Positions 736-23,481 of a stretch of DNA of 35,088 bases are shown piece after piece. The DNA comes from Phycisphaerae bacterium. GTDB taxonomy: Bacteria > Planctomycetota > Phycisphaerae > UBA1845 > PWPN01. Where the stretch lies: the NCBI GenBank assembly GCA_012729395.1, contig JAAYDF010000175.1, forward strand, positions 1 through 35,088, written 5' to 3'. The translations under genes were made by a program, and so were the position numbers. The notes under the pieces were generated by a model, which saw only the letters and a list, made by a program, of their open reading frames with translations, was not told where the DNA came from and did no database searches. Positions within the stretch are counted from its first letter, which is position 1. Every line of letters begins with the position of its first letter.

Positions 736-2643
736 ATGTTCAAGACTTGTATCGGCGGCATTGTGTGCTGCGCCGCCCCGGCGATTCTGGCCGTCGCCTT
801 GTCGGCGACGAAAACGACCTTGGCGGCGGAACCGATCCGGGATGAGTTTGCCTTTCTGCCGCCCGACGCCGTCCACTTCACCGGCTGGTTGGAGGACTGC
901 ATCCAGAACTCGATCATCCACTGGAACAAAGGCGTGGTGCCCTACGCCGGCTTCGTCGAGATGTACCGCACGGGGCGCAAACTCTTCGCCCAGGGCGAGA
1001 TGTGGGGCAAGGCCGTGCGCTCCGGCTCCATGTTCTACCGATACACGCAGGATCCCGAGTTGAAGCGGATCCTGGCGGCTACCGTCGCCGACCTGCTGAC
1101 CACCAGGCGGGCCAACGGCAGCATCAGTTGTTCCGACGTGTCCGCCCAGCCGGATGGACCGGGCGGCGAGTTGTGGGAGCGCAAGTACGTCCTCCTTGGC
1201 CTCGATTGTTACTACGAGCACGTGGAGAAAGATCCCCACGTTCTGCGGGCCATGATGGAACTGGCCGATGTCACCATCGACCAGATCGGACCTCCCCCCA
1301 AGGTTCGCATCGTCGATCAGGGCTGGAGCCCGAACCACATCGAGTCGAGCACCATCCTCGAACCCATCATGCGGCTCTACAAGCGGACCGGCGAGCAACG
1401 CTACCTGGATTTCGCCAAGTACATCGTCGAGGTCGAAGGCGGCGCCAAGGACCATCGGATCATCGAGGACGCCTTGAACAACAAGGAGCCCTACAAGATC
1501 GGCGGCGTATATCCCAAAGCATACGAGATGATGTCGCTGTTCGAGGGCGTGGTCGAATACTACCGGGCCACCGGCAATGAGCGCTGGAAACAGGCGGTAC
1601 TGAATCTCTATCGCAACATTCGCGAGAAGGAGATCACGATCATCGGCAACGGCGGCGGCGACCAGCCCTACCACCCCGCGGTGCTCGGCGAGGCCTGGGA
1701 CAACACCGCCCTGGAGCAGGCCAATCCGGACATGCGGCGAATGATGGAGACCTGCGTCGGCGTTACCTGGGTCAAGTTGTGCAGCCAGATCCTACGGCTG
1801 ACCGGCGATCCCTCCGCGGTCGATGATATCGAGCGGTACGCGTACAACGGATTGATCGGGGCGATGAAACCCGCCGGCGACGGCTTCAGCTACGTCAACC
1901 TGCTCAACGGTGTGAAGACGAACCCGGAAGGGTGGGGAGCGGTCATCCATGACGTGTACGTCACCTGCTGCAATCTGAACGGCCCGATGGGGCTGGCCTA
2001 CCTGCCGCTCGTGGCGGTGATGAACTCCCGGACGGGGCCGGTGGTCAATCTCTACGAGCCCTGCATTGCCGCCTCGTTGACGCCGGCCGGCCGACCGGTC
2101 CGCCTCGAAGTGGCGACGGATTACCCGCGGTCGGGCAAGGTCATGATCCACGTCAAGCCCGAGATCCCGGAGCGTTTCTCCATTCGGGTGCGCATCCCCG
2201 CATGGAGCGCCTCGACTACCCTGAAAGTCAACGGTGAGACGTTCCCCGTGGTGGCCGGCACATATGCCGACCTCGCGCGCGCCTGGACTGCCGGGGACGA
2301 GATCGAGTTGATGGTGGACATGCGCTGCCGGTTGCTCGACTCACCTCGGGGCAGCAACCGGGCGGGAGACAATCACCAGGCCCTGGTTCGTGGCCCGATT
2401 GTGCTGGCCAGGGACGAGAACCTCGATCCCGACTATGACAAGCCGGTTACCATCGTCGGCAAAGCCGGCTACGTGGACGTTACCGCCGTCCCCACGACTC
2501 TGCCGACCACGCGCATGCAATTCCTTGTCCCCACCGCGGACGGGGGTTCCATCCCCATGGTGGATTATGCCACGGTGGACAACTGGAACGGGAAGCGCAT
2601 CTGCACCTGGCTTCCCAAGCCCCCGGCCGGTGCGAAGCCGTGA
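736..2643 (+). CDS. GH127 beta-L-arabinofuranosidase (DUF1680 family), secreted
   Basis: The protein has 635 residues from an ATG at 736, preceded by AGGAGG (721-726); an in-frame start 84 bases upstream lacks such a site and would push the signal peptide inward. Residues ~1-31 form a signal peptide (hydrophobic IGGIVCCAAPAILAVALSA). The rest matches glycoside hydrolase family 127: an (alpha/alpha)6 barrel followed by beta-sandwich regions (RIPAWSASTTLKVNG near 510). In the characterised bifidobacterial enzyme HypBA1 a Cys nucleophile sits on a zinc site made of Glu338, Cys340, Cys417 and Cys418. Here METC places Glu338 and Cys340 at the same numbers, and TCCN gives Cys411-Cys412, so the catalytic zinc-thiolate centre is complete. 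The expected action is release of beta-L-arabinofuranose from glycans outside the cytoplasm. Substrate is inferred from family only. Confidence 0.88.
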   Translation: MFKTCIGGIVCCAAPAILAVALSATKTTLAAEPIRDEFAFLPPDAVHFTGWLEDCIQNSIIHWNKGVVPYAGFVEMYRTGRKLFAQGEMWGKAVRSGSMFYRYTQDPELKRILAATVADLLTTRRANGSISCSDVSAQPDGPGGELWERKYVLLGLDCYYEHVEKDPHVLRAMMELADVTIDQIGPPPKVRIVDQGWSPNHIESSTILEPIMRLYKRTGEQRYLDFAKYIVEVEGGAKDHRIIEDALNNKEPYKIGGVYPKAYEMMSLFEGVVEYYRATGNERWKQAVLNLYRNIREKEITIIGNGGGDQPYHPAVLGEAWDNTALEQANPDMRRMMETCVGVTWVKLCSQILRLTGDPSAVDDIERYAYNGLIGAMKPAGDGFSYVNLLNGVKTNPEGWGAVIHDVYVTCCNLNGPMGLAYLPLVAVMNSRTGPVVNLYEPCIAASLTPAGRPVRLEVATDYPRSGKVMIHVKPEIPERFSIRVRIPAWSASTTLKVNGETFPVVAGTYADLARAWTAGDEIELMVDMRCRLLDSPRGSNRAGDNHQALVRGPIVLARDENLDPDYDKPVTIVGKAGYVDVTAVPTTLPTTRMQFLVPTADGGSIPMVDYATVDNWNGKRICTWLPKPPAGAKP

Positions 2644-2799
2644 CCGGGCGAGAAATTGCAGCTCTCAGGTCTTGATGTGGAGCCCACCCAAGAGGCAGGC
2701 TGTGGCGGGTCGAGCGGGCCACGCCGCCAGGGTGGCCGCCACGGGTGTGGTGTGGGTGTGGCATCGGCGTCTCGCCGGTGTGGGCGCTCAGCATATGCC

Positions 2800-2825
2800 G
2801 GTCGTCGCGCGAGGCGACCGCTACG
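2800..2825. repeat. Degenerate copy of the GTAGCGGTCGCC palindromic repeat
   Basis: GGTCG...CGACC arms flank a short GC-rich loop and are followed by GCTACG, the reverse complement of the core shared with copies at 9855, 12479, 20054 and 21419. It lies between the converging GH127 and FapA-type genes. The surrounding 2644-2914 interval holds no convincing gene. Confidence 0.45.
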
Positions 2826-9644: not shown

Positions 9645-9710
9645 TTTGCTTTGGGTGTAACTCGCTGGACGCCTGGCTCCTGCGGCAAAATGGCGAATGC
9701 CCAAGGCCCA

Positions 9711-9820
9711 ATGACCAGTCAATGACCAAACCCGAAGCCAGAACGCCAACCGCGGGCGGGGACGTTCGTCATTGGTCATTCAGACTTCATTGGTCATTGG
9801 GGCTTCGCCATTGGTCATTT
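9711..9820. repeat. Cluster of TGGTCATT/AATGACCA repeats
   Basis: Five copies of an ATTGGTCATT-like word occur in both orientations: ATGACCA 9711, AATGACCAA 9721, ATTGGTCATT 9771, CATTGGTCATTGG 9788 and CATTGGTCATT 9809, with GGGGCTTCG between the last two. The low-complexity pattern is unlike the flanking coding DNA. The 9569-9910 interval contains this cluster, the bfr terminator and one palindromic element, but no gene. Confidence 0.65.
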
Positions 9821-9854
9821 CGTCCGCGGATCGCAAGCTGCGCCCATTTGCTTT

Positions 9855-9913
9855 TCACGAACGACGCCGGTCGCCACGGGGGGCGACCGCTACGCCATGC
9901 GTGAACTGCTCTA
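9855..9913. repeat. Palindromic element (TAGAGCATTTCACG family), short copy
   Basis: The outer parts TTCACGA (9855-9860 region) and CGTGAACTGCTCTA (9900-9913) are inverted, and the inner arms GGTCGCC (9869-9876 region) and GGCGACC (9882-9888 region) form a hairpin, followed by GCTACGCC. The right end differs from the copy ending at 12593 (CGTGAAATGCTCTA) at one base. Its last three bases, CTA, are the stop codon TAG of the minus-strand gene that ends here. Confidence 0.7.
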
Positions 9914-11089
9914 TCGCGCCTCGCGTGAGGCGTAGCGGCAAGCCTGGCGGATCCACTCGAGCCGTGTCAGCGGGAGAAGGCCGTAGTTGTAGATATTCGC
10001 CGAGCGGATTCCCTGCTCGACGGCGCTTCGCATCATGGCGACGAGTTCCGCGGCGTCCGAGCAGGGCGGTGTGCAGGCGCTCAGTCCGACCTCGACCCGC
10101 GTGACGTCGCCGGTGTCGGCCGTCGCCGCTCGCACCGCCGTCGCCAGCCGTTGCGGATCGTTGACGTAGCAGGGGGCCAGCAGGGCATCACATGTCGCCG
10201 CCAGTTCGGCGAAGTCGGTTGCCCCCCACAGCGGCGGACCGCTGCGATGCACGATCAGGCGGCACGGGCATGTGGTTCGGATCAACTTGATCAGCGAGGT
10301 CACCTGCTTGCGGCGCCAGTTGGCATAAGCGGCCAGGGCCGGCTCGCGGTCGAGCAGCTCGTCCGGCTCTGTGGCCAGCGGCTCGCCCGATGCAAGAACA
10401 CCTTCCAGATAGCGGGTTGCCACTTTGGCCGCCTCCGCCACGTCCACGCCTTCGCGGGTGGCCAACTGCCGACACGATTCGCAGAAACACAGCCCCCGCA
10501 GCCAATCGCCGGCCGGCCCGCAGGCGAACCCCTCCTTCTCGTGATGATGGGCATGGAGGTCCGTCGGGAAGCTTGCCCGCTCGAGCTCGATGGCCTCGAA
10601 ACCGTAATGCGTGCCCAGATCCTCGACCATCCCGCGCAGGCACTCGCGCACATCCAGATTGCTCGGGCACAGCCACGCCGGGCTGACCGCCCCGAACACG
10701 TCCTTCACTCCGCCGGCCGGATAACGCTCGACCATCGCCGAGCCATGGCAGCAGACGTGCCATGCACGCAGCGTCAGACCTCGCTTGGTGCACGCCTCGG
10801 CCACCGCCGCGAGCGGGTTGGTTTTGCGCAGCCACTGGGCCACCACCGGCCGCATGCGCGTCGATGCATAGCAGGCACCCTGCGGTTGGAATTGTGACCC
10901 GCCGGCGGAGATGAACCGCCGTGGACCGTTTGACGCGTGCGAGCGGAGTTGATCCACGCGGTGGTAATTCGTCGCCACGCTGATTCCGGTGATGCCCGCT
11001 TCGCCCTGGAGTCGATCCAGAACTCCGTCGATCCCCTCGTCGACCAAGTCCCACAGGTAGCACCATAGATGAGTCTGAAAGGTTGCCAT
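9911..11089 (-). CDS. Unknown protein, possible TIM-barrel glycoside-hydrolase-like
   Basis: A 392-residue protein without signal peptide, starting at ATG 11089. I do not recognise a characterised family. The pattern of strands ending in acidic or aromatic residues (GISVATNYH near 35, LRAWHVCCHGS near 107, EAIELERASF near 165) is what one expects of an (alpha/beta)8 barrel related to glycoside hydrolases; Glu168 or Glu170 could be catalytic. A Cys cluster CFCESC (201-206) after a run of His (AHHHEK) could bind metal. Other ends include CRLIVHRSG and LSACTPPC. The last codons and the stop (TAG 9911-9913) merge into a palindromic repeat, so the natural C-terminus may have been altered. It is transcribed divergently from the ion transporter gene. 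Confidence 0.6.
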   Translation of the reverse strand: MATFQTHLWCYLWDLVDEGIDGVLDRLQGEAGITGISVATNYHRVDQLRSHASNGPRRFISAGGSQFQPQGACYASTRMRPVVAQWLRKTNPLAAVAEACTKRGLTLRAWHVCCHGSAMVERYPAGGVKDVFGAVSPAWLCPSNLDVRECLRGMVEDLGTHYGFEAIELERASFPTDLHAHHHEKEGFACGPAGDWLRGLCFCESCRQLATREGVDVAEAAKVATRYLEGVLASGEPLATEPDELLDREPALAAYANWRRKQVTSLIKLIRTTCPCRLIVHRSGPPLWGATDFAELAATCDALLAPCYVNDPQRLATAVRAATADTGDVTRVEVGLSACTPPCSDAAELVAMMRSAVEQGIRSANIYNYGLLPLTRLEWIRQACRYASREAR

Positions 11090-11096
11090 CGCCGCA

Positions 11097-11126
11097 GTGA
11101 TACGCCACACCTGCCCGCCAAGTCAA
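11097..11126 (-). promoter_or_regulatory. Candidate promoter giving a leaderless transcript
   Basis: On the minus strand TTGACT (11121-11126) is 18 bases from TATCAC (11097-11102). The expected start of transcription, about seven bases further, falls on or next to the ATG at 11089. No ribosome site precedes that ATG, so a leaderless mRNA is possible. This is an inference from spacing only. Confidence 0.4.
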
Positions 11127-11263
11127 CCCGGGGCGAAATGTCGGCAGGCGTTGCCCAGGGAACCTACAGCGGCCGCATCCTTCGTTTGCACGGATAAAAC
11201 CGTCTGCTCTCGCTACGCCCCGCTTGAGTTCGCCGCCCGAGGCAGGTATGAATAGCCGCGCAT

Positions 11264-12481
11264 ATGGACACCATGGTGCTGATTGTCTTTGGTTTCGTCT
11301 ACCTGGGCATGATCCTCGGCCGCATTCCTGGTTTGGCCCTGGACCGCACCGGCGTTGCTCTGCTTGGCGTCATCGTCTTGCTGGCGACGGGGCGAGCCAC
11401 GACCGAGTCGGCTTGGTCCGCGGTGGACGTCGGCACCATGGCTTTGCTCCTCGGCTTGATGATCGTCTCGGCCCAGTTTCGCCTCGGCGGCTGCTACGCC
11501 CGGATTGCCCGCGCTCTGGCTGAAGCCGACGTGTCTCCCTCGATGTTGCTCGCTTTGCTCATCGGGATCACCGGCCTGCTCGCGGCTGTGCTGTGCAACG
11601 ACATCGTCTGCCTGGCCATGGCCCCCGTGCTCGTCGAGGGCTGCGAACGCCGCAAACTCAACCCCGTGCCTTTCCTGCTCGCTCTGGCGTGTGCCTCAAA
11701 CGTGGGATCGGCGGCCACGCTCATCGGTAATCCGCAGAACATCCTGATCGGGCAGAAGCTGCAAATGCCGTTCGCGGGCTATCTAGTCATGGCCTTGGTG
11801 CCATCGATCCTCGGTTTGGCGGCCATCTGGTGGGTGATTGGCCATCTGGCCCGCGGGCAATGGCATAAGGATATGACGCCGACGCCGGCTGAGGCCCCAC
11901 CCTTCAACGTGTGGCAGACGGGCAAAGGGGTGACCGTTCTGGCGACTCTCATGGCCGTCTTTCTGTTTACTGCTTGGCCGCGCGAGCTGTGTGCCCTCGC
12001 GGCCGGCGGCCTGCTGATGACCAGCCGCCGCCTTGCCTCGCGACGTATTCTGGCCCTGATCGACTGGCAGTTGCTCGTGCTCTTCGTGGGACTGTTCGTG
12101 GTCAACGACGTACTCGCCTCGTCGGGTACCCTGGGAGAACTTTTTGCCATTCTGCGGTCCGGCGGGCTCGACTTGGGCCGGCCGGTGCCGCTCTTCGTGA
12201 CCACCGCTGTGCTGTCCAATCTCGTGTCCAACGTGCCCGCTGTCATGCTCCTCCTACCCGTCGCAAGCCATCCTTTGGCTGGCGCCATCTTGGCGCTCTC
12301 CAGCACGCTCGCGGGGAATCTCCTCGTCGTCGGCAGCATCGCCAATATCATCGTGATCGATCAGGCCGCCCGCATGGGCGTGACCATCACCTGGCGCGAT
12401 CACGCTCGCGTCGGAATCCCCGTGACCCTGCTGACCTTGGCGATCGCCGGTGCGTGGCTGGTCGCGTGGTCTCTCGTTTAG
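11264..12481 (+). CDS. ArsB/NhaD-type ion transporter (IT superfamily permease)
   Basis: A 405-residue integral membrane protein with about 10-11 hydrophobic segments. The signature SNVGSAATLIGNPQNILIG (about 145-163) is characteristic of the ArsB/NhaD branch of the ion transporter superfamily, and a second inverted-half copy is seen as SNLVSNVPAVMLLLP (about 316-330). The family includes arsenite exporters, Na+/H+ antiporters and dicarboxylate or phosphate permeases; no arsenic gene (arsR, arsC, arsA) is adjacent, so the substrate is open. The ATG at 11264 lacks a clear ribosome site. The stop codon TAG (12479-12481) is the first three bases of a palindromic repeat. Confidence 0.8.
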   Translation: MDTMVLIVFGFVYLGMILGRIPGLALDRTGVALLGVIVLLATGRATTESAWSAVDVGTMALLLGLMIVSAQFRLGGCYARIARALAEADVSPSMLLALLIGITGLLAAVLCNDIVCLAMAPVLVEGCERRKLNPVPFLLALACASNVGSAATLIGNPQNILIGQKLQMPFAGYLVMALVPSILGLAAIWWVIGHLARGQWHKDMTPTPAEAPPFNVWQTGKGVTVLATLMAVFLFTAWPRELCALAAGGLLMTSRRLASRRILALIDWQLLVLFVGLFVVNDVLASSGTLGELFAILRSGGLDLGRPVPLFVTTAVLSNLVSNVPAVMLLLPVASHPLAGAILALSSTLAGNLLVVGSIANIIVIDQAARMGVTITWRDHARVGIPVTLLTLAIAGAWLVAWSLV

Positions 12482-12593
12482 AGCATTGCACGATTCATTG
12501 TAGCGGTCGCCCCCCGTGGCGACCGGCGTATTCCTTGCGAGTTCGCGGGTCACCAGGGGCGGCGGCCGCTACGCCATTGCGTGAAATGCTCTA
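12479..12593. repeat. MITE-like palindromic element, copy 2
   Basis: The left end TAGAGCATTGCACG (from 12479) and right end CGTGAAATGCTCTA (to 12593) are inverted copies with one mismatch. Internal GTAGCGGTCGCC and its degenerate complement (GGCGGCCGCTACGCC) continue the palindrome. There is no open frame inside, so it is non-autonomous. It abuts the next copy through a shared CTAG at 12591-12594. Its first three bases are the transporter stop codon. Confidence 0.8.
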
Positions 12594-12738
12594 GAGCATT
12601 TCACGATTCATTGTAGCGGTCGCCCGCTCCGCCGCGGCCTACGTGGCGTGGCGGACAGGCGGAGGCGACCGGCGTGTCTGTTGAGAATCCAGCGTCCTCC
12701 AGAGCCGGTGGCCGCCACACAACCTCGTGAAACGCTTA
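12592..12738. repeat. MITE-like palindromic element, copy 3 (divergent right end)
   Basis: The left end TAGAGCATTTCACG (from 12592) continues with GATTCATTGTAGCGGTCGCC, as in copy 2. The right end is a diverged inverted copy, CGTGAAACGCTTA (12726-12738), one base shorter. The middle holds an unrelated GC-rich stretch with its own inverted repeat around 12630-12670. Its last three bases (TTA) form the stop codon of the minus-strand gene that ends at 12736. Confidence 0.7.
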
Positions 12739-13761
12739 GGGGGCATCCACAAGCCGCACGATCTGGTTGAGCTTGGGCAGTGACATGTAGATGTCGTTGC
12801 CGTCCGCGGAGATGGCAAGCTCGTCGTCCTCCGACGTTTCCGCGGTGGTGTACCCGACGCCGAAGGTCATGGTCTGATCCGCGGGGGAGAAAATCAGCAC
12901 GCCGTTCAGCTCGCTGCCGCTGGCCAGATTGTGCCGGGCACGCATGACCAAGTCGCCATTGTTCCCGACGATGAACGAGTGGATACCGTACCGTTCGCTG
13001 CCGGGCACGAAGGTGGGGCTGCCATCGGTGGCGATGGTCTGCAAACCGGGAATTGTGTTCGCCAGCGTACCTCGGGAACTGTACAGGACGGGTCCCGGCC
13101 CGAAGGCCAGGTGGTGTGCGTTGCGATTCGTCGTGCCAAGCAAGGGGTTATTGACCCGGGTGACCGCTCGATCGCCCTCGACGTCGATGGCGGCGAGTCT
13201 GGAGAAGGTGGTTTCCTGCCCGACGAGCAACTGCCCGGGCTGGATCTGCTCGCCGACGAAGTCATCCGGCACGATGGTCATGGTCTCCGCCTTGATGTTC
13301 GACGAGGAGGTGATCAGGCCGTTGAACGGCTGCGCATCCCCACCGGCGGGCGGAACGACGGCCAGCCTGACGCAGCAGCTTGAGCCGATCCAGAACTCAC
13401 CGCTTTCCGTGATGGCCAGTACGAGCGAATCGCTGCCGGTCCCGAAGATGGCGGGCGTGGCCAGATTCTCAGCGCCGAACGGCTGCATTTGCGACAGATC
13501 GTCCCCTTCGTCCAGAGGCCCGAACAGCCCTGTGCGGTTGACCGCGAAGAGTGCCCCGTCGGATGGGCGCAGGGCGATGCCGCTGGCCCCGCCCGTGTTC
13601 GTCACGTGGGCGATCGCCTGAAGCGTCTCGGTCTGGGCTGCGTTGCCCCCGTGGCCGGGATCGCCGGTATCGGGCGGCCCGACGGTCCCAGGGCACGTGA
13701 TGCCCAGGCAGACCAGCAGGCAGGTTGAACAGCCCCACACATGCAGCAGCTTTCTGTTCAT
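12736..13761 (-). CDS. Secreted protein of unknown function, beta-propeller-like
   Basis: A 341-residue protein started at ATG 13761, eight bases after AAGGAGG. It has a signal peptide (LLHVWGCSTCLLVCLGITC); the Cys after LGIT could be a lipidation site but the box is not canonical. A Gly/Asp/Pro linker (PPDTGDPGHGG) follows. The mature part repeats short segments such as ASGIALRPSDGALFAVNRTG, LVLAITESGEFWIGS, HHLAFGPGPVLYSSRG and DDELAISADGNDIYMS, spaced like blades of a YVTN/NHL-type beta-propeller, so it may bind a partner or ligand outside the cytoplasm. No catalytic motif is seen. Its stop codon TAA lies in the end of a palindromic repeat. Confidence 0.6.
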   Translation of the reverse strand: MNRKLLHVWGCSTCLLVCLGITCPGTVGPPDTGDPGHGGNAAQTETLQAIAHVTNTGGASGIALRPSDGALFAVNRTGLFGPLDEGDDLSQMQPFGAENLATPAIFGTGSDSLVLAITESGEFWIGSSCCVRLAVVPPAGGDAQPFNGLITSSSNIKAETMTIVPDDFVGEQIQPGQLLVGQETTFSRLAAIDVEGDRAVTRVNNPLLGTTNRNAHHLAFGPGPVLYSSRGTLANTIPGLQTIATDGSPTFVPGSERYGIHSFIVGNNGDLVMRARHNLASGSELNGVLIFSPADQTMTFGVGYTTAETSEDDELAISADGNDIYMSLPKLNQIVRLVDAP

Positions 13762-14184
13762 GGGATTGCCTCCTTGATGCGGCTGAAGGGACAGAGGATT
13801 TCGCCTGGACGGCAGCACGATACGGGAATTGCGTGCAACAAGCTCTCGGGGCAACCCACCTCGATCACCCGAGGAACTCATCTTCACCTGCGGTCAAAGG
13901 CTGTCGTCCGATTTCGCGGAATCAGCCCGGCTCGCCGGGAGCCCGTGGACTACCCACGGGCAGCATGCGCTCACTATATCCCCGGTTTCCGGCTTTTCCA
14001 AGAGCGAGAACAGGGCGCATTTTCTGTGTAGGGGCAGGCCTCATCCGTGTGGTACTGCTCTGTGAGCAGTGTTTTTTTGGGGGAGGGGCGCTGCTGACCC
14101 GGCAGTGGCACACGACAGTGCGTGCCAGGCCCGCCAGTCGCCACGTTTCGGTGGATGCACCCGCGGGAACAGCTCCAGTTTCGC
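13762..14184. other. Intergenic region with leader and repeat remnants
   Basis: No gene is supported. The left part is the leader and promoter of the secreted protein. The right part has a perfect hairpin ACTGCTC (14054-14060)/GAGCAGT (14064-14070) followed by a run of seven T, and then GCAGTGGCACACG (14103 region), the same words as in the 23.1-23.4 kb tandem array. It therefore appears to be a decayed copy of that repeat rather than a terminator, since no plus-strand gene ends before it. Confidence 0.5.
13973..14001 (-). promoter_or_regulatory. Strong sigma70-type promoter with long leader
   Basis: On the minus strand TTGGAA (13996-14001) is 17 bases from TATAGT (13973-13978). The predicted transcript has a leader of about 205 bases before ATG 13761. 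That leader contains a perfect 8-bp hairpin, GCCCGTGG (13941-13948)/CCACGGGC (13954-13961), and the smaller hairpin GGCTC/GAGCC (13929-13943), which cannot form fully together since they share bases. Confidence 0.6.
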
Positions 14185-16089
14185 TCACCTTGACTGGTCG
14201 CCAATCAACGAGCCGCGGACTTCAGCCCGAGCGGCCTTGGGCATCTCGGCCACGCCCGTGGTGCAAGGCCATACCGTGCGTGCCGAAGCCAGCGGCGTAC
14301 CGGGTAGGGCATGACTGGCCGGCTCGCCCTGCGGGTTGCGCATCGGGATTGGGCTGCTGGGTGCCTGCCGACGATAAGTGATGCCGCCGCGCCACAACCG
14401 CAACGCCCAGCCGAAAGTCCGTCGGATCGTTTGGGCCAGTCCGTACATGCCGATCATCTGCATGCCACTGTCGGCGAGATACAGTCTCGTGTTCGGCCGG
14501 ATAAGACCCCACGCAAGGCGAAGTGGATTATAGAAGTACATATAGGCGAGCATGATGTTGAACTGCTTGCGCCACGGTTGTGGGTGCGCGGACGCGACCA
14601 CGTAGTTGGCGTCGAGCATGTGCGGCTGGACTCGGCGGCCGTCGACACTGTCATACACCAGGCCCGAGGCAAAGGTGCTCTCGTAAAGCCGCGAGCCGGT
14701 GGCCGGCGTGATCATCAATACCTGAAGGCTGACCGCACCCGCTTTGCGCAGAAGCCGTACCTGGTTGAGTAGACCGTAGGGTTTGCCCCGCGTATAGAGA
14801 GGCTGCTCGTCGTGGTGCATCATCATGGGCATTGGGCAAATGCCATGCTGCTGCAGAAGCCGAAACGCCTCCGACGTGCTGTCCACGCTCTGGCCCTTCT
14901 TGACCAAGGTGGCGGTCATGTCCTCGACGCCCAGCCAGAGGGCTCGCACGCCGGCCGCACGCACGGTAGGCAGGTGCTCTCGCAAAGCCAGCGTATCGTG
15001 AACGGTCACTTCCGTACCCCAGCGGATACGTTTCCGCAGCTTGGTCCCGTTGACCTGGGCCTGGGCCAGCGACTCTAAAATGTCCAGTGTTCGCTCGCGA
15101 TTATTAAAGAAGTTGTCGTCCGCTCCAAAGAAGTAGCGGAACCCATATTCGGTATTCAGGCGACGGAATTCATCGACGATTCTCGCTCCACTCTTGACCC
15201 GGTGCTGGCGCTGGTTGTAGGCGGGAATGGGGCAGTAGGGACAGTTGAACTTGCAGCCGTAGGTCAGCACCAGCGAGACGATCGGGCTGTAGCGGCGAAC
15301 CAGGCGATCCGCCAATGGCTGCGAGCCAAGTGTGGGCGCGCGACTCGGGGGCTCGAGCAGACGGTAACCGAGGATCGGATGGGGCAGCTCGTCGAGGTCG
15401 CCCAGCAGCCGCTGCACGCCTGTATCGACCAGCTCCTCCACCAAGCCCTCCTTGTCGCCGCGGGCATACACCAGGCCCGGGATCTCGTCCAACATCCCGC
15501 CGTCCCGTGCGCGCCTGAACGCCGACCGCATCGGCTCGCCTTTCGCCCGGATCGAGAGCAGCAGCTCGATCAGACTCAGCAGAACGAACTCCTCGCCGGT
15601 GACCGCCACGTCCGCGCCCCAGCGGTGGGCCGGGTCGGCGTTGAAGACATCCCACGGCTCATAAATCGTCTTCGGACCGCCGGCGATGATCAGCGGGCGA
15701 TGCTCGGGATCGATGTGGCACGCGTCGCGAATCAGACCGTGGCACTGTGCCGAGTGAATCTGCATGCTCGACACCATGAACATGTCGGGCACGCGACCGT
15801 CCACTCGCATCCGCGACGGGCGAAAGTGCGGGTTCCATTGCTGCAGAACGATACGGGTGCGGGAGAAACCGGCATCCACAAGTGCGGAGCCCACCGCTCG
15901 GACGCCCGCGGGCGCCATCCGAAGATCCGCGAAGATGAAAGGAAGCATACGCGTGCGATGATCGAAAGCGCACGCCACCACGCTGGTCAGATCGTGCTTG
16001 GCTGACGCCCGGCGAAGCCGATCCCGCAAGGCTGTCAGCTCGCCAGGCTTGAGTAGCTCATCGCCGCGTCCACGGCGGGGAAGTTCCAT
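14185..16089 (-). CDS. B12-binding-type radical SAM protein
   Basis: A 634-residue protein started at ATG 16089; further upstream the frame stays open but codes Arg/Cys-rich sequence that does not look like protein. Residues ~50-230 look like the cobalamin-binding Rossmann domain common in this class (DMFMVSSMQIHSAQC, LIIAGGPKTIYEP, DVAVTGEEFVLLSLIELL), without the classical DxHxxG motif. The radical SAM cluster motif is CKFNCPYC, Cys279, Cys283 and Cys286, which binds the [4Fe-4S] cluster and cleaves S-adenosylmethionine. After the barrel come FFGADDNFFNNR, ALWLGVEDM and LQVLMITPATGSRLYE, as in B12-dependent radical SAM proteins. The C-terminal ~60 residues are low complexity. The substrate is unknown; methylation or ring rearrangement of a lipid or natural product is typical of relatives. 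Confidence 0.82.
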   Translation of the reverse strand: MELPRRGRGDELLKPGELTALRDRLRRASAKHDLTSVVACAFDHRTRMLPFIFADLRMAPAGVRAVGSALVDAGFSRTRIVLQQWNPHFRPSRMRVDGRVPDMFMVSSMQIHSAQCHGLIRDACHIDPEHRPLIIAGGPKTIYEPWDVFNADPAHRWGADVAVTGEEFVLLSLIELLLSIRAKGEPMRSAFRRARDGGMLDEIPGLVYARGDKEGLVEELVDTGVQRLLGDLDELPHPILGYRLLEPPSRAPTLGSQPLADRLVRRYSPIVSLVLTYGCKFNCPYCPIPAYNQRQHRVKSGARIVDEFRRLNTEYGFRYFFGADDNFFNNRERTLDILESLAQAQVNGTKLRKRIRWGTEVTVHDTLALREHLPTVRAAGVRALWLGVEDMTATLVKKGQSVDSTSEAFRLLQQHGICPMPMMMHHDEQPLYTRGKPYGLLNQVRLLRKAGAVSLQVLMITPATGSRLYESTFASGLVYDSVDGRRVQPHMLDANYVVASAHPQPWRKQFNIMLAYMYFYNPLRLAWGLIRPNTRLYLADSGMQMIGMYGLAQTIRRTFGWALRLWRGGITYRRQAPSSPIPMRNPQGEPASHALPGTPLASARTVWPCTTGVAEMPKAARAEVRGSLIGDQSR

Positions 16090-16743
16090 AACGCATATCC
16101 GTTGCAGGCACGCCTGCCCCCCTCGCTGGACCGGTCCGACCTGCCGCCTGCCCTGTGCTATTGCCCATCCAAGAGACCGTCGTCTCAACCCGAGAGGAAG
16201 GAGAGCCACGGGGACAAAGAAGCACGGCACACGGTGCCGGGCCTCAATGCGGCAGACCAACCAACCTCAAGTATAGCCGCATCCCCCCGCAGGGCATAGC
16301 CGCCGGCCCAAACTCATAGGGCAGTACCGCTTCGTCGCGTCCGCAGCCTGTGCCGAACCGCGCCCGCTACCGATACATCGCCGTGCCTGCCGCCGATGCC
16401 TCGTCGTGGCGACCACGATGCCTGGTTGCACTCACCGCCGATGGTCCATCGCGCCCGCCGCCCCCGCCGGCCGCTGGGAGGCGATCGAACCTCAATCGCC
16501 GGCCACGCACAGCGGTGCGGTCGCTACGGCCTGACGATCCCGGCCGGAAGCCTGTGGCAAGACAGGGCCGAGATTTGCATTCCAGTTTCGTCCTGGATAT
16601 CGCTATACTATTCTTCACGCGGTCGTGAAGCATACTGCGGTCACGGCCAAACCCCTGCGTGCGAGCTGATGACGGAGGGAATGCGGAATCAGGACACCAC
16701 GGTGCGTGTCTGATCGGACCTTTGTGAATCGAGTACCATCGCC
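16090..16743. other. Intergenic region between divergent radical SAM and oxidoreductase genes
   Basis: No gene is supported in these 654 bases. It holds a short palindrome GCAGGC-AC-GCCTGC near 16104, a degenerate GTAGCGACCGC-like core in the minus direction near 16520-16533, and a candidate promoter with palindrome at 16604-16630. Confidence 0.4.
16604..16630 (+). promoter_or_regulatory. Candidate -10 with palindromic operator
   Basis: TATACT (16604-16609) is a good -10 element; the -35 is weak. A perfect inverted repeat CTTCACG (16613-16619)/CGTGAAG (16624-16630), spaced by CGGT, covers the predicted transcription start. It lies 114 bases before the oxidoreductase start and would suit a dimeric repressor. 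Confidence 0.4.
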
Positions 16744-18045
16744 ATGAATCACCATCGTCAACCTACACGCCGCGTTTTCCTTCAGCAATCCGCCTTAGTC
16801 GCCGCCGGGGTCTGCCTCGGTAACCGCATCACCCGGGCGACCGGGCCATCACCGAACAGCACGCTCGGTATCGCCGTCGTCGGTGTGGCCGGGCGAGGTG
16901 CCGACAACCTGCACGGGGTCGCCCACGAGACCATTGTTGCCCTGTGCGATGTGGACGAGAGCCGGGCTGGCGGAGCCCGCGAGCAGTTCCCCAAGGCGAA
17001 GTTCTTTGCCGACTATCGCCAGATGCTCGATACCCTGGACAAGGACATCGACGCCGTCGTCATCTCGACGGCGGACCATACGCACGCGGCCATCGCCATG
17101 GCTGCCCTCAAAGCCGGCAAGCACGTCTATTGCGAGAAGCCGCTGACCCATTCCGTCTACGAGGCCCGGCAACTGACCGAGACGGCCGCCCGGCTCAAAC
17201 GCGTCACCCAGATGGGCAACCAGATCCACGCCGGTGGCAACTACCGCCGAGTCGTCGAACTCGTGCAGCGGGGCGCGATCGGCTCGATCCGCGAGGCTCA
17301 CGTCTGGTGCGGATCAGTCTGGGCGGGCGGCGAACGGCCAACCGATACCCCCCCCGTCCCCGAGGGCTTGCACTGGGACCTGTGGCTCGGCCCCGCTCCA
17401 TACCGCGCGTACCACCCGGACTACGTGCCCGCCAAGTGGCGCGGCTGGTGGGACTTCGGCGGCGGCGGGCTGGGAGACATGGGCTGCCACTACATGGACC
17501 TTGCCCACTGGGCCCTCGACCTCCGGCACGCCCGGGCTGCCGAGGCACAGGGACCGCCCGTTCATGCCGAACACGCCCCCGATAAGCTGACGGTTACCTG
17601 GGACTACCCCGCCCGGGGCGAGCAGCCGGCCGTCAAACTCACCTGGTACGGCGGACAGACACGACCGGGCGACGTCGCCCAAGGGCAGATCCCCGAGTGG
17701 GGGGCCGGCGTGCTCTTCGTCGGTGCCCGCGGCATGCTCCTCGCCAATTACGACGAGCACCGCCTGCTGCCGGAGAAGGACTTCGCCGACTTCCAACGGC
17801 CCGACCCCTTCATCCCTGATTCCATCGGGCATCACAAGGAATGGACCGAGGCCTGCAAGACCGGCGGGCCAACCACCTGCGGATTCGACTACACCGGGCC
17901 GCTGACCGAAACCGTCCTCCTGGGCAACGTCGCCTACCGCGCCGGCCGGCGAATCGAGTGGGACGCCGCCAACTTCAAGATTCCCAACGCCCCCGAGGCC
18001 ATGCGCTATTTGCGACGCCCATACCGTCAAGGTTGGAGTCTGTAA
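16744..18045 (+). CDS. Tat-exported Gfo/Idh/MocA family oxidoreductase
   Basis: A 433-residue NAD(P)-dependent oxidoreductase-family protein. A twin-arginine signal is at the N-terminus (TRRVFLQQSALVAAG, Arg9-Arg10), so it is probably exported folded with its cofactor. The Rossmann fold begins IAVVGVAGRG (about 43-52), the family EKP motif is Glu131-Lys132-Pro133, and the substrate domain shows GDMGCHYMDLAHWAL near 250, with the His expected in the active site. Relatives act on sugars, cyclitols or sugar acids; the particular substrate cannot be read from the sequence. Planctomycetes encode many such exported copies. The next gene is on the other strand, so it appears to be monocistronic. Confidence 0.88.
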   Translation: MNHHRQPTRRVFLQQSALVAAGVCLGNRITRATGPSPNSTLGIAVVGVAGRGADNLHGVAHETIVALCDVDESRAGGAREQFPKAKFFADYRQMLDTLDKDIDAVVISTADHTHAAIAMAALKAGKHVYCEKPLTHSVYEARQLTETAARLKRVTQMGNQIHAGGNYRRVVELVQRGAIGSIREAHVWCGSVWAGGERPTDTPPVPEGLHWDLWLGPAPYRAYHPDYVPAKWRGWWDFGGGGLGDMGCHYMDLAHWALDLRHARAAEAQGPPVHAEHAPDKLTVTWDYPARGEQPAVKLTWYGGQTRPGDVAQGQIPEWGAGVLFVGARGMLLANYDEHRLLPEKDFADFQRPDPFIPDSIGHHKEWTEACKTGGPTTCGFDYTGPLTETVLLGNVAYRAGRRIEWDAANFKIPNAPEAMRYLRRPYRQGWSL

Positions 18046-18268
18046 GGCCAAGGCTGTCTGTAACTCCAAGGCTGGAGGTGCGAGGGCGGAACCTGGCGGC
18101 CGCCGGGTGGCGATATCGCCTTCACGAGTGCCCGGGCCCGGATCGTCTGTGCCGGCCCGAGGTCTGCCGACGCGGCCCAGTCGCCCGACCGCACGGTAAC
18201 GCTGTCATGTCGGAAGGCCTCAAGGTGACAAACGCCTTGGCGCCTCTGTGACCCTTCGCGGGCACCGC

Positions 18269-18472
18269 TCAGAACTGCGGCCCCCAGGGCTCCAAGGAAC
18301 AGCTCGGCCAGTCGGCGTCGAAGCCGTTCGGCCCCGGCTCCGTCTGCTGTGAATCAGCAGCCCAAACGCTCAGCCCGCGAGCCGCCGCCTCCGACGTGCA
18401 ACCGTGAGTCTGCATCAGGCAACCACCAGCCAGTCCCATCGCCGTCAGAATCGTCAGCAGCTTGCGGGTCAT
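18269..18472 (-). CDS. Small secreted or lipid-anchored peptide (67 aa)
   Basis: A 67-residue protein with an excellent ribosome site (AAGGAGG seven bases before ATG 18472). Residues 1-18 are a short signal peptide (MTRKLLTILTAMGLAGGC); Cys18 follows LAGG, an imperfect lipobox, and another Cys at 25 follows THG. The remaining ~42 residues are polar with a C-terminal PSCSLEPWGPQF. I recognise no family. The gene stands alone between a plus-strand oxidoreductase and the first of three beta-propeller-like genes. Confidence 0.55.
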   Translation of the reverse strand: MTRKLLTILTAMGLAGGCLMQTHGCTSEAAARGLSVWAADSQQTEPGPNGFDADWPSCSLEPWGPQF

Positions 18473-18747
18473 GATAGACCTCCTTGGCTTCTGCGTTCCC
18501 GTGTTCCCCGGCCGCCCTTCGCGACCGCAACACCCTGAAGCACAGCATCCGCCATGCCAAGGCCGAGAAGGCCCCTGGCGGGCAGAAGAAAGACACCGGA
18601 ATGATCATATGGGGTATTATTACCCAGATGTGGGCTTTTTTTGGGGAGTCATCCACGGATGTGGCTGCCCATCCATCCCCAACGACCTGCGGTGACGCCA
18701 TCTCGCCACGCGAACAGCCACTCCTCTGGACGCTCCCCAGCGGCCCG

Positions 18748-19968
18748 CTACGGCTGCGTCGTCGGGACGGCGGGTTGCGGGGGCGAGTCCAGCGTGATCC
18801 AGTGCCAGAAGGTAAACCATTCCGCCATGGATCCGATGCGTTGCACGGGACCCGCGTCATTGATCATCGACCAGTCGGAGGCGTCGAAGAACCGAACAAC
18901 GAACTGTTCTTTGTCACGGTATATCCCGGCCACGTAACGTCCGCTCGGGGAGATGCGCGGAAGGCCGACCAGGGCAGTTAGAACTTCAATCTTCCGAGTG
19001 CGAAGATCCAGCTTTGCCGATCGGTGCTTCACCTCACCCTTCTCTGTTGTGACGCAATGGTTGCTCAGCAAAAGATAACTGTCGTCCGGCGCAACGGAGG
19101 TCGCCGTTCCCTGGGCCAACTTCTCCTCTTGACCCGTCCGGATGTCCACCCGATATGTAAAGGCGGGGTAAACCTTGGGTTGCAGTGTTTCTCCCGGCAC
19201 AGGGCCCTGGATAAAGTACACGTATTGCGAGTCTGAACTCCACTGGGGAGGAATGGCCTCATCTCCCAGCAATGCGGTTCTTCGTCCTGCGGGTTTGACC
19301 AGCTCAGCAACCCCGTTGTCCAGTGTCACCAGGGCGATGCCAAAATCTCGCACCGCCGGCGAGGCACGCATGCCTTCCGCATAGGCGTAGTAGAAGGCCA
19401 CCTTGCGCGAGTCCGGGCTCCACGAGAAGGCTGTCTGGTGCATGCCGTCCCCACCGTCCCAGTCGATCCAGTCCAGATCAAAGGTCCGCGTCGTCTGCTC
19501 ATGGTGCATGATCACACCGGAAGCACCCAGGAGCATAACCCATCCGCAGCCGTCGGGGGATGCCTCGAGAATCCTAATACCACCTCTCTGGGCGGCTAAA
19601 CGCTCAGTATCGATACCCGCCGGAAAGGGTGTCACGGTTCGCCCATCATTACGCAAACGGATCACGGAGTAAGTCGGCTTGCAGGTGACAGTAAGCAGCG
19701 AGTCGCCCGCTGCGACGGTGAGGAAATCCTTACCCACTAATGGAATCTCATCCTCCTGTGTCGCTAATTCCTGTCGCGTCCCGGTCGTTGGGGCGTATGC
19801 CGCGAGGACACGTTTCACATAGCGACGATCATCGCGACGGTGGCGGGCCGGCTGCTCGAGCACGGTCAGAAGCTCGGTGGGCGAGGTATTCGGGGAAGTG
19901 TCCACACCGGCAGCTGGCAACGCGGCCAAGGGGATGTGAATCGCAAGTAGGGTCAGGAGCAGGGTCAT
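18748..19968 (-). CDS. Secreted TolB/PD40-like beta-propeller protein, paralogue 1
   Basis: A 406-residue protein started at ATG 19968 with GGAGG seven bases upstream. The signal peptide is MTLLLTLLAIHIPLAALPA. The mature part has propeller-type repeats: FSWSPDSRKVAFYYAYAEGM, IPPQWSSDSQYVYFIQG, SVAPDDSYLLLSNH and PRISPSGRYVAGIYRDKE, each with the SPDG-like turn of TolB/PD40 blades. No catalytic motif is visible; a periplasmic binding or scaffold role is a guess. It is closely similar to paralogue 3 through the body (81 bases identical at 19063-19143 and 21783-21863) but shares its signal peptide with paralogue 2. The C-terminus PPQPAVPTTQP is common to all three. The stop TAG (18748-18750) lies in a degraded copy of the GTAGCGGTCGCC repeat. 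Confidence 0.65.
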   Translation of the reverse strand: MTLLLTLLAIHIPLAALPAAGVDTSPNTSPTELLTVLEQPARHRRDDRRYVKRVLAAYAPTTGTRQELATQEDEIPLVGKDFLTVAAGDSLLTVTCKPTYSVIRLRNDGRTVTPFPAGIDTERLAAQRGGIRILEASPDGCGWVMLLGASGVIMHHEQTTRTFDLDWIDWDGGDGMHQTAFSWSPDSRKVAFYYAYAEGMRASPAVRDFGIALVTLDNGVAELVKPAGRRTALLGDEAIPPQWSSDSQYVYFIQGPVPGETLQPKVYPAFTYRVDIRTGQEEKLAQGTATSVAPDDSYLLLSNHCVTTEKGEVKHRSAKLDLRTRKIEVLTALVGLPRISPSGRYVAGIYRDKEQFVVRFFDASDWSMINDAGPVQRIGSMAEWFTFWHWITLDSPPQPAVPTTQP

Positions 19969-20012
19969 CGTATGGCCTCCATCCTGCTGGTATCCACCTG
20001 TGGGAAGCTGTC

Positions 20013-20042
20013 ATGATACCACCATAACGCACCACGGTCCAA
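20013..20042 (-). promoter_or_regulatory. Promoter of paralogue 1
   Basis: On the minus strand TTGGAC (20037-20042) lies 18 bases from TATCAT (20013-20018). The same arrangement precedes the other two paralogues, which argues that it is functional. The leader would be about 38 bases. Confidence 0.55.
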
Positions 20043-20053
20043 GGCCGCCGTCC

Positions 20054-20127
20054 GCCGGTCGCCACGGCTCGACTGAGCTCGCCGAAGTCGGCTCGGCTGG
20101 CTCGCCGAAGTCGGGGGGCGACCGCTA
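20054..20127. repeat. GTAGCGGTCGCC palindromic repeat between paralogues 1 and 2
   Basis: GCCGGTCGCC (20054-20063) and GGGCGACCGCTAC (20116-20128 region) are inverted arms. Between them GCTCGCCGAAGTCGG is present twice, making this copy longer than the one at 21419. CTA at 20125-20127 is the stop codon of paralogue 2. Confidence 0.75.
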
Positions 20128-21333
20128 CGGCTGCGTCGTCGGGACGGCGGGTTGCGGGGGGGCTTCCAGCGTGATCCAGCGATAATCGGTGAACCAGTCG
20201 CTGAGCCCTCCGGCACGGGGTATTGGATTGCCGACCGGTTGCCAGTCGGAAGTGCTGTAGAACTGCAGATCGCGGTTCACGCCTGGGGGCGGCGCCGGAG
20301 GGGTGAACGTTCTCACCAGATCGACCGCGAATTTGCCGCTCGGGGAAATCTCGGGGAACACCAGTCCCCTGGGAAGGTGTCTGATCTCTCCGGTCGCGAG
20401 CATCGTCTGTGCCGTCACCGTGGCCGGGTGATTGTCCCGCTTAAACTGAAGCCGCGTCAGGACGTATGTATCGTCAGGGGCGACATCGAGGAAGGTGCCG
20501 GAAGCGACCTGTGAGGTGTGTTGGGTCTCGAAATCGTAGCGGTACGTCGCGGACAAAGGCTCGTAGTACTCCTCACCGGGCGGCGTGGGGATGCCGTCGG
20601 TATAGTACAGATAACGCCCGGATTGACTCCATCCGATCAGTATGTCCTTGGCATCGCCATGCTCCGGCGTCCCGAAGGCCTCCCCGGCGGGCAGGATTAC
20701 CTGGAGTGCGCCTTGGGTCGTCAGAACCGCCACTCCGTGCTTCTGGATGTACAGATCGTCGTGGTTGGGATTGGTGACGTAATAGAAAGCGACCCGGGTC
20801 GAATCCGGGCTCCAGGATAGCGGGCGGCAGAGATACCAACGGTGAACGACCTCGATGACCGTGGAACGGTCGCCTATCGCCAGGATCCGCTTGCTTCCAC
20901 CTCGACCCCCGGGAAGGACTGGCGGGCTTCGATAGTCGGCGACCAGCCATTGGCCATCGGGCGAAACCGTCAGTGTGTCCAAAGAAACCTGCGTGTTTGG
21001 AATGAACTTCTCGAACAGTTTGAAGGGTAACTCGGACGCAGGGCCACCGGCTACGGTTCGCGGCCCTTCTCTGCTGGGCTTCCCGACTCGCTTGACCGCT
21101 ACCAGTTGTCCGGAGCGATCAAGCAAGGCCCCGGAGAACACCTGCTCGGGACCCTCGATTTCGAGCATGAACTCGGGTTCCCGCAGCGGAGCACTGCGGA
21201 CAAGTTGTAGGTGCAGCCGCTCAGTACTCAGTGCGATCGGGCTGACAAACCATTCCTCTGCGTCGTCGGCCTCTCCTGCCGGCAACGCGGCCAAGGGGAT
21301 GTGTATCGCAAGTAGGGTCAGGAGCAGGGTCAT
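20125..21333 (-). CDS. Secreted TolB/PD40-like beta-propeller protein, paralogue 2 (divergent body)
   Basis: A 402-residue protein started at ATG 21333. Its first 19 residues are identical to paralogue 1, and the upstream DNA is nearly identical, but the body is strongly diverged from both neighbours (e.g. LSWSPDSTRVAFYYVTNPNH, DVAPDDTYVLTRLQFK, EISPSGKFAVDLVRTF). The blade turns are conserved at the same places, so the fold is the same. The end PPQPAVPTTQP again matches the other two. This pattern, conserved ends with a diverged middle, points to sequence exchange at the ends or selection for a new ligand in the middle. The stop TAG (20125-20127) is part of the palindromic repeat. The function is unknown. 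Confidence 0.65.
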   Translation of the reverse strand: MTLLLTLLAIHIPLAALPAGEADDAEEWFVSPIALSTERLHLQLVRSAPLREPEFMLEIEGPEQVFSGALLDRSGQLVAVKRVGKPSREGPRTVAGGPASELPFKLFEKFIPNTQVSLDTLTVSPDGQWLVADYRSPPVLPGGRGGSKRILAIGDRSTVIEVVHRWYLCRPLSWSPDSTRVAFYYVTNPNHDDLYIQKHGVAVLTTQGALQVILPAGEAFGTPEHGDAKDILIGWSQSGRYLYYTDGIPTPPGEEYYEPLSATYRYDFETQHTSQVASGTFLDVAPDDTYVLTRLQFKRDNHPATVTAQTMLATGEIRHLPRGLVFPEISPSGKFAVDLVRTFTPPAPPPGVNRDLQFYSTSDWQPVGNPIPRAGGLSDWFTDYRWITLEAPPQPAVPTTQP

Positions 21334-21377
21334 CGTGTGGCCTCCATCCTGCTGGTATCCACCTGTGGGAAGCTATC

Positions 21378-21407
21378 ATGATACCACCATAACGGACCAC
21401 GGTCCAA
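21378..21407 (-). promoter_or_regulatory. Promoter of paralogue 2
   Basis: On the minus strand TTGGAC (21402-21407) lies 18 bases from TATCAT (21378-21383), the same spacing as at paralogues 1 and 3. Confidence 0.55.
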
Positions 21408-21418
21408 GGCCGCCGTCC

Positions 21419-21470
21419 GCCGGTCGCCACGGCTCGACTGAGCTCGCCGAAGTCGGGGGGGCGACCGCTA
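21419..21470. repeat. GTAGCGGTCGCC palindromic repeat between paralogues 2 and 3
   Basis: Arms GCCGGTCGCC (from 21419) and GGGCGACCGCTAC (ending 21471) are separated by GGCTCGACTGAGCTCGCCG and GG-rich sequence. CTA at 21468-21470 is the stop codon of paralogue 3. Apart from a missing internal duplication it matches the copy at 20054. Confidence 0.75.
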
Positions 21471-22688
21471 CGGCTGCGTCGTCGGGACGGCGGGTTGCGG
21501 GGGCGAGTCCAGCGTGATCCAGCGGCAGAAGGTGTACCATTCCGCCAGGGTTCCGGTGCCTTGTATCGGGCCGGGGTCACTGATCATCGACCAGTCGGAG
21601 GCGTCAAAGAAACGGGCGACGAACCGCTCTTTGTCTCGGCACATCGCGACCACGTAGCGTCCGCTGGGGGAAATGCGAGGAAGGCCGACCAGCGGAGGCA
21701 GAAGCTCAACCTTCCGGGTGCGGAGATCCAGCTTTGCCGATCGGCCCTCAACGTCGCCCTTCTCCGTTTTGACGCAATGGGCGCTCAGCAAAAGATAACT
21801 GTCGTCCGGCGCAACGGAGGTCGCCGTTCCCTGGGCCAACTTCTCCTCTTGACCCGTCCGGATATCCACCCGATACGTGAAGGCGGGGTGAACCTTGGGT
21901 TGCAGCTTCTCTCCCGGCACAGGCCCTTGGACGAAGTACACGTACTGCGAGTCCGAACTCCACTGGGGAGGAATGGCCTCGATCCCCAGCCATGCGGTCG
22001 TTCGTCCCGATGGTTTGACCAGTTCGACCAGGCCTTCGTCAAACGTCACGAGCGCAACACCGAAGTCTCGGATTGCCGGCGATGCACGCATACCTTCTGC
22101 ATAGGCGTAGTAGAAAGCCACCTTGCGCGAGTCCGGGCTCCAGGAGAAGGCCACATCGTTCATGCCCGTGCCCCCCTCCCAGTCAATCCATTTGAGGTCA
22201 AACACCCGCGTCGTCTGCTCATGGTGCATGACCACATCGGACATGCTCATATACGCTACCCATCCGAGAGCATCCGGAGAAGGCTCCATGACCCGAACCG
22301 CGTGACTGCGGGCAATCGCACGCTCAAGATCAGGCGAACTTGGGAAGGGGATCGCGGTCCGTTCATCGCCACGCACACGAATCACACAGGGGGTTGGCTT
22401 GAACATCAGGCTGAACATCGAGTTGCCCGATATGGCCGTGCACAGGTTCTTTCCTTCCCGGGGGATCGGATCCTCCTGTACTGTTAATTCCTGTCGCAGA
22501 CCAGTCAGTGGATCATACGCCGCCAAGACACGTTTCATGTACTGCTGATCGCCACGCCGTGACCACACAGGGCGCTCAAGTGAGGCCAGAAGTTCGGTCG
22601 GCGAGGCCTCCTGGCCGGCGTCCGCTCTCGTTAGCGGCGCGCCTGCAGATATCAGAATCGCCAGTAGGATTACGAATTGGGTCAACAT
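21468..22688 (-). CDS. Secreted TolB/PD40-like beta-propeller protein, paralogue 3
   Basis: A 406-residue protein started at ATG 22688 with GGAGG six bases upstream. Its signal peptide (MLTQFVILLAILISAGAPL) differs from that of paralogues 1 and 2, yet the mature body is very similar to paralogue 1: SPTELLASLERP, FSWSPDSRKVAFYYAYAEGM, SVAPDDSYLLLSAH, PRISPSGRYVVAMCRDKE. The shared C-terminus is PPQPAVPTTQP. Start-to-start spacing between successive genes is 1365 and 1355 bases, as expected for tandem duplication. All three have separate promoters, so they can be expressed independently. The function is unknown. Confidence 0.65.
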   Translation of the reverse strand: MLTQFVILLAILISAGAPLTRADAGQEASPTELLASLERPVWSRRGDQQYMKRVLAAYDPLTGLRQELTVQEDPIPREGKNLCTAISGNSMFSLMFKPTPCVIRVRGDERTAIPFPSSPDLERAIARSHAVRVMEPSPDALGWVAYMSMSDVVMHHEQTTRVFDLKWIDWEGGTGMNDVAFSWSPDSRKVAFYYAYAEGMRASPAIRDFGVALVTFDEGLVELVKPSGRTTAWLGIEAIPPQWSSDSQYVYFVQGPVPGEKLQPKVHPAFTYRVDIRTGQEEKLAQGTATSVAPDDSYLLLSAHCVKTEKGDVEGRSAKLDLRTRKVELLPPLVGLPRISPSGRYVVAMCRDKERFVARFFDASDWSMISDPGPIQGTGTLAEWYTFCRWITLDSPPQPAVPTTQP

Positions 22689-23111: not shown

Positions 23112-23373
23112 GTGGCGAGTGAGGTTTGCACGCATGCACTGCTTACTGAGCAGTGGCACACGGGTGTGTGCTCGCGAAGTGGTGGCACACGGGTGAGTAC
23201 TCGCGAAGTGGCGTGAGTGGCGAGTGAGGTTTGCACGCATGCACTGCTCACAGAGCAGTGCCACACGGGTGTGTGCTCGCGAAGAAGTGGCATACGGGTG
23301 CGTACTCGCCAAGAAGTCGCACACGGGTGTGTGCTCGCGAAGCAGTGGCACACGAGTGCTTGTTCGCGGGGCG
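23112..23373. repeat. 29-bp tandem repeat array with 107-bp higher-order duplication
   Basis: Six copies of a 29-base unit beginning GTGGCACACGGGTG and containing CTCGCGAAG lie at 23153, 23182, 23258, 23287, 23316 and 23345, head to tail within each block. Each block is preceded by the same ~30-base lead (GGCGAGTGAGGTTTGCACGC...) at 23112 and 23219, 107 bases apart, and by a CACTGCT/AGCAGTG hairpin (23138 and 23240). There are no unique spacers, so it is not a CRISPR. The array ends about 110 bases beyond the ftsK stop codon. Confidence 0.8.
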
Positions 23374-23481
23374 ATGGTGCATGGATGCGCGTTGTCGTAG
23401 CGGTCGCTCTTGGCGGCGATAGGTGTGTGGCGGGGCTTGGCCTATCGTCCACGCGCAAGCACGAGTTCTCGTGGTCCGTGG

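Follow-up and report, generated by a model that had tools for sequence, protein, structure and literature searches.

The window, meaning the whole stretch of 35,088 nucleotides that was analysed, is the entire contig C142 of a Phycisphaerae genome (G000; 5.74 Mb, 370 contigs). As the initial annotation had reported, six genes in it stop inside copies of palindromic repeats. According to the sequence and the ORF lists, TAG at 9911-9913 ends a minus-strand gene, TAG at 12479-12481 a plus-strand gene and TAA at 12736-12738 a minus-strand gene, and the TAGs at 18748-18750, 20125-20127 and 21468-21470 end three minus-strand paralogues. The annotation had ascribed all six to one repeat family, which has to be divided into two kinds. 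The stops at 9911, 12479 and 12736 are made up of the outermost bases of a palindromic element bounded by the TIR TAGAGCRWTTCACG, a MITE of about 113 bp with IS630-type ends. Those at 18748, 20125 and 21468 have no such TIR and lie inside GTAGCGGTCGCC, a core that is also present within the MITE; they belong to core-only REP copies.

The first MITE copy in the window (9846..9913, minus strand) is internally deleted, with a REP core inside at 9882-9893. Its right TIR (9900-9913, TAGAGCAGTTCACG) gives TAG to the minus-strand gene 9911-11089, and its left boundary was inferred by eye from a degenerate TIR (GCTTTTCACG). Beside this element, at 9688-9820, lies a third palindromic repeat (AATGACCA...TGGTCATT), which is also nested within a MITE copy elsewhere (L098:9556-9813). 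A 405-aa gene at 11264..12481 on the plus strand, transporter-like as judged from its hydrophobic sequence, ends at full-length MITE copy 1 (12479..12593, plus strand; TA-GAGCATTGCACG...CGTGAAATGCTC-TA, 115 bp including both TAs). Copy 2 (12592..12738, plus strand) follows in tandem and has the TA at 12592-12593 in common with copy 1. Its diverged right TIR (TAAGCGTTTCACG, minus strand) contains the TAA at 12736-12738 of the convergent minus-strand gene 12736..13761, so that both genes of the pair do end in the repeat, through copies 1 and 2. Joined together, the outer flanks of the pair would read CTCGTT-TA-GGGGGC, a single TTAG that would have carried overlapping stops for both convergent genes.

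The three paralogues, all on the minus strand, meet the second kind of repeat. Paralogue 1 (18748..19968) ends in a TAG within a degraded REP head (GTAGCGGGCC), and paralogues 2 (20125..21333) and 3 (21468..22688) end in TAGs within the GTAG heads of REPs at 20117-20128 and 21460-21471. A fourth member of the set lies on contig C37 (L039:690). The paralogues count as one event, a caveat that the annotation had itself raised, and the window thus holds about four independent ends. For comparison, another core-only REP copy (2796..2824, minus strand) lies between convergent genes, away from any stop.

Both repeats are dispersed through the genome. The TIR has 99 matches at up to two mismatches (reversed control, 6), and exact copies of the core GTAGCGGTCGCC number 176, some of them in arrays (control, 7). 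We gathered about 1.36 Mb around repeat matches, a sample that is therefore enriched in elements and from which only ratios between site classes were used, and called genes in it with a home-made Markov-model caller. A weight-matrix scan for the TIR returned 124 ends above 12 bits and none in a reversed control. The resulting set of 82 elements (L031-L110 and the window) consists of weight-matrix ends plus the 9911 copy, which was added by hand. Paired TIRs delimit elements of 74-258 bp, with a mode of 115 bp counting the TA at both ends. They have the marks of a MITE, being short, without a transposase of their own and numerous (82 in 1.36 Mb), and their interior holds two inverted GTAG-headed cores. 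L104 (1913-3629), considered as an autonomous copy between TIRs, was set aside, having no obvious transposase inside.

The flanks of the elements define the target. In the window genome 49 of 58 TA ends have a pyrimidine before the TA, and young copies (score ≥42) show TA in 26 of 28. We considered whether the TG/CA ends of older copies reflect a different target duplication and rejected this, given that young copies are mostly flanked by TA; we read these ends as decay. Duplication of the TA can be followed in a second dispersed repeat family (GTGTGGCACTGCTCTGTGAGCAGTG...), present in the window at 14012-14111 and 23136-23400, which is the MITE target in L042, L060 and L067: the elements sit within this repeat, and its other copies are contiguous across the site. 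The window copy at 14012..14111 keeps the empty site with a single TA, and where the site is occupied, in L060 and L067, TA stands on both sides of the element. The single TA common to the tandem copies 1 and 2 also fits a duplicated TA.

The same ends are found on an IS in a related Phycisphaerales genome of the same family (G008), whose 14-bp end TAGAGCATTTCACG is identical to the MITE TIR. At its 5' end, TAGAGCATTTCACGAAATAGCGTAGC precedes an ORF whose product begins MTYSMDLRERV. At the 3' end of the IS lies the coding sequence for part of a DDE_3 domain (E=2.4e-9), the end of a transposase, which places the IS in the IS630 family. Each of its 43 ends has CTA or TTA in front of it. Since a pyrimidine and TA precede the IS ends in every case and most MITE TA ends, the target is YTAR (CTAG, TTAG, CTAA or TTAA), with the TA duplicated. 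A few genes run into this IS and have their stops deeper within it, as young insertions would lead one to expect. At one G008 locus (L143:3-206, contig C101) the TGA stop of the IS630 transposase gene itself lies inside the IS TIR (CGTGAAATGCTCTA). A PF13358 search of the window's own assembly, which is broken at repeats, found no intact IS630 element with these ends; a DDE_3 match on contig C216 was discarded as a source, being a sub-threshold fragment without matching TIRs. A MITE often, but not necessarily, has an autonomous partner in its own genome, and in so fragmented an assembly the failure to find one counts for little. The transposase that moved the MITE would thus be of a type known here from a different genus.

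The reading that we prefer, with a probability of roughly 0.86, is that two mobile palindromic repeats, a YTAR-inserting IS630-type MITE and a GTAG-headed REP, leave TAG at native gene ends. The non-autonomous MITE would be, or would have been, moved by an IS630-family transposase, inserting at YTAR and duplicating the central TA. With an element that starts with G, YTA|R would become YTA-GAGC...GCTC-TAR, and wherever the TA is part of a native TAA or TAG, the gene would end in TAG at the same codon; YTAR being a palindrome, the other strand would be equivalent. Intragenic insertions elsewhere would be lost to selection. REPs with a GTAG head, presumably spread in association with a RAYT, would give TAG from that head where they lie directly against the native end of a gene.

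Location with respect to neighbouring genes bears on whether the copies also serve a function. Within 100 bp of a stop, 45% of YTAR sites are occupied in convergent regions, compared with 12% in tandem (p=4e-7) and 2% in divergent regions, a convergent bias that exceeds what target preference alone predicts. The copies may accordingly have been retained as bidirectional terminators or as stabilisers of mRNA 3' ends, their overlap with stops being incidental. This explanation is compatible with our preferred one, and we regard it as possible, if doubtful. The RNA fold of a window MITE copy is very stable (-74.2 kcal/mol, z -8.7), which would suit such a role; however, no U-tract was seen, promoter avoidance accounts for part of the location bias, and REPs in general show such a location pattern (PMC3733652). 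It is rather unlikely that the MITE spread owing to the combination of stop-compatible ends and the co-option of convergent copies as bidirectional terminators or insulators. The ends are stop-compatible in that YTA|G leaves every TAA or TAG functional whichever way the element points, including a TTAG on which two convergent stops overlap; co-option, if true, would explain the 45% occupancy of convergent sites.

A different account would have random insertion into old 3' ends shorten the genes, with the TAGs of the repeat being simply the first stops met. Two of the three frames entering an element do meet a TAG (TIR positions 1-3; core positions 23-25), so that an incoming ORF would often end there, but all the stops fall in one of them. 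In 23 of the 82 elements a gene stop coincides exactly with TIR positions 1-3, in none does a gene run on to the following in-frame TAG (offset 25), and none of the 82 is read through by a called gene. This single-frame spike (23/23 in one frame, 0 in the second) makes random truncation unlikely because an ORF entering in that second frame should have ended at offset 25. Furthermore, YTAR occurs in the last 100 codons of genes 90 and 107 times in two phases and never in frame 0; as an in-gene YTAR in frame 0 would be a stop, a junction in that frame marks a native stop.

Comparison with orthologues, which also argues against truncation, points the same way. The queries were two chimeric proteins, and stop positions were read from the aligned ranges and from the stops counted inside them; the orthologues are about 50-85% identical and some end in TGA, so that they inform on the position of the stop and not on the precise bases that each site had before insertion. 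Gene 11264-12481 ends ...LVAWSLV-TAG, and its orthologues L125 (...LVLRSLM-TAG) and L126 (...LVVRSLM-TAG), from another genus, stop at the same codon without the repeat; others have a TGA one to three codons away. For the L098 gene and a gene in L100, read from their C-terminal sequences as PurH and RtcB-like, and for the 9911 gene, relatives have their stops at that codon or no more than about two codons from it. A relative of the L037 gene stops within five codons, and in several genomes the alignments of the L059 gene extend as far as its final codon or one codon past it. In G008 the RtcB-like orthologue has a TGA at the same codon, from which it follows that the type of stop codon changes between genera. 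For the 12736 gene the protein search found no orthologue. Overall, orthologues lacking the repeat keep the stop position or have one within a few codons, an outcome that the annotation had named as speaking against its proposal, and in the MITE cases tested the majority stop at the same codon. Our reading accounts for this, because the insertion would have hit a native TAA or TAG and turned it into TAG in place. The annotation's second suggestion, insertion into old 3' ends that replaced native stops, therefore survives in part: native stops were replaced in place, and the genes have not been shortened. Truncation is very unlikely as a general explanation; it is conceivable for genes outside the orthologue comparison and for L041, which has a variable tail.

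The excess at stops that the annotation led one to look for is real in the 1.36 Mb sample: measured against all noncoding TA sites, the 23 stop junctions have p=8e-13. This all-TA null made stops look specially targeted. YTAR was adopted as the proper null after the IS ends had shown YTA in every case, and with it the excess over nearby DNA was gone: 25% of YTAR sites are occupied at stops, 21% in the next 100 bp downstream and 7% in other noncoding DNA, with no difference between the first two (Fisher p=0.51). There is no stop-codon targeting beyond the YTAR preference, and insertions reach stops because these contain the target within an insertion-tolerant region. That the element actively seeks out stops or the regions where translation ends, guided for instance by terminating ribosomes or by an RNA or protein signal, as the annotation's first suggestion would require, is extremely unlikely in spite of the 23 junctions, given this equal occupancy and an IS in G008 that has only 1 of its 43 ends at a stop. 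Our literature search on stop-targeting transposons found nothing relevant.

The properties of the MITE match those of known systems. A purified IS630-family transposase inserted almost only at TA, which was duplicated (PMC2170065), and for IS630 a preference for the TA of CTAG is described (Tenzen and Ohtsubo 1991, as cited in PMC2170065). The element resembles IS630-family (Tc1/mariner-like) MITEs in its TA duplication and in a TIR identical over 14 bp to that of a relative's IS encoding a DDE_3 transposase; unlike them, it has a wider target (YTAR) and holds two inverted REPs. Enterobacterial RU-1/ERIC elements are likewise small, palindromic and MITE-like, have TA ends with duplication and sometimes alter gene 3' ends (PMC2759123). 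Those cases extend or fuse with the protein, whereas the repeat described here re-creates the stop without shifting it to another codon. Re-creation of the stop is thus largely an ordinary outcome of known transposon chemistry, and what is spelled out here is the consequence of an IS630-type target for stop codons. A transposon with a stop-like palindromic target can occupy gene ends at no visible cost. For annotation, this means that a stop inside a repeat need not indicate a truncated gene, and a single-frame stop spike can reveal which target sequence a MITE prefers in a bacterium that has not been cultured.

The REP half of the phenomenon is already known. GTAG REPs that supply TAG to ORFs in other bacteria were reported in 2013, as were GTAG families in Planctomycetes (PMC3733652). 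In our data, the core-only copies start with GTAG, are imperfect GC-rich palindromes and often occur in arrays. Eight of them, about six independent, supply TAG to a gene, and relatives of the gene in one such case (L101) end within about two codons of the same place. They share with GTAG REPs and REPINs that have a RAYT the GTAG head, the imperfect palindrome, more than 100 copies, a bracketed RAYT and copies near gene 3' ends; they differ in that neither the sequence GTAGCGGTCGCC...GGCGACCGGCG nor this host is among those described in the passages of PMC3733652 consulted. That source also describes GTAG-15 dimers of A. variabilis in TATAGGA...TCCTATA, a REP dimer nested, as here, in a longer TA-ended palindrome; the sequence is another one, and a link to IS630 ends is not stated in that passage.

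L228 encodes a protein that may mobilise the core-only copies. Its RAYT (Y1_Tnp) ORF (1429-1953, minus strand) contains MPDHLHVLL and has a Pfam match of 22.4 bits, just under the 23-bit cut-off. Within L228:1353-1969 it is bracketed by two direct GTAGCGGTCGCC REPs (1353 and 1385, plus strand) and one inverted (1958, minus strand); bracketing of RAYT genes by inverted REPs has been described (PMC2817692). Another Y1_Tnp gene, at L204:1252-2360, is flanked on each side by diverged GTAGCGGCCGCC repeats that share one orientation and are not inverted.
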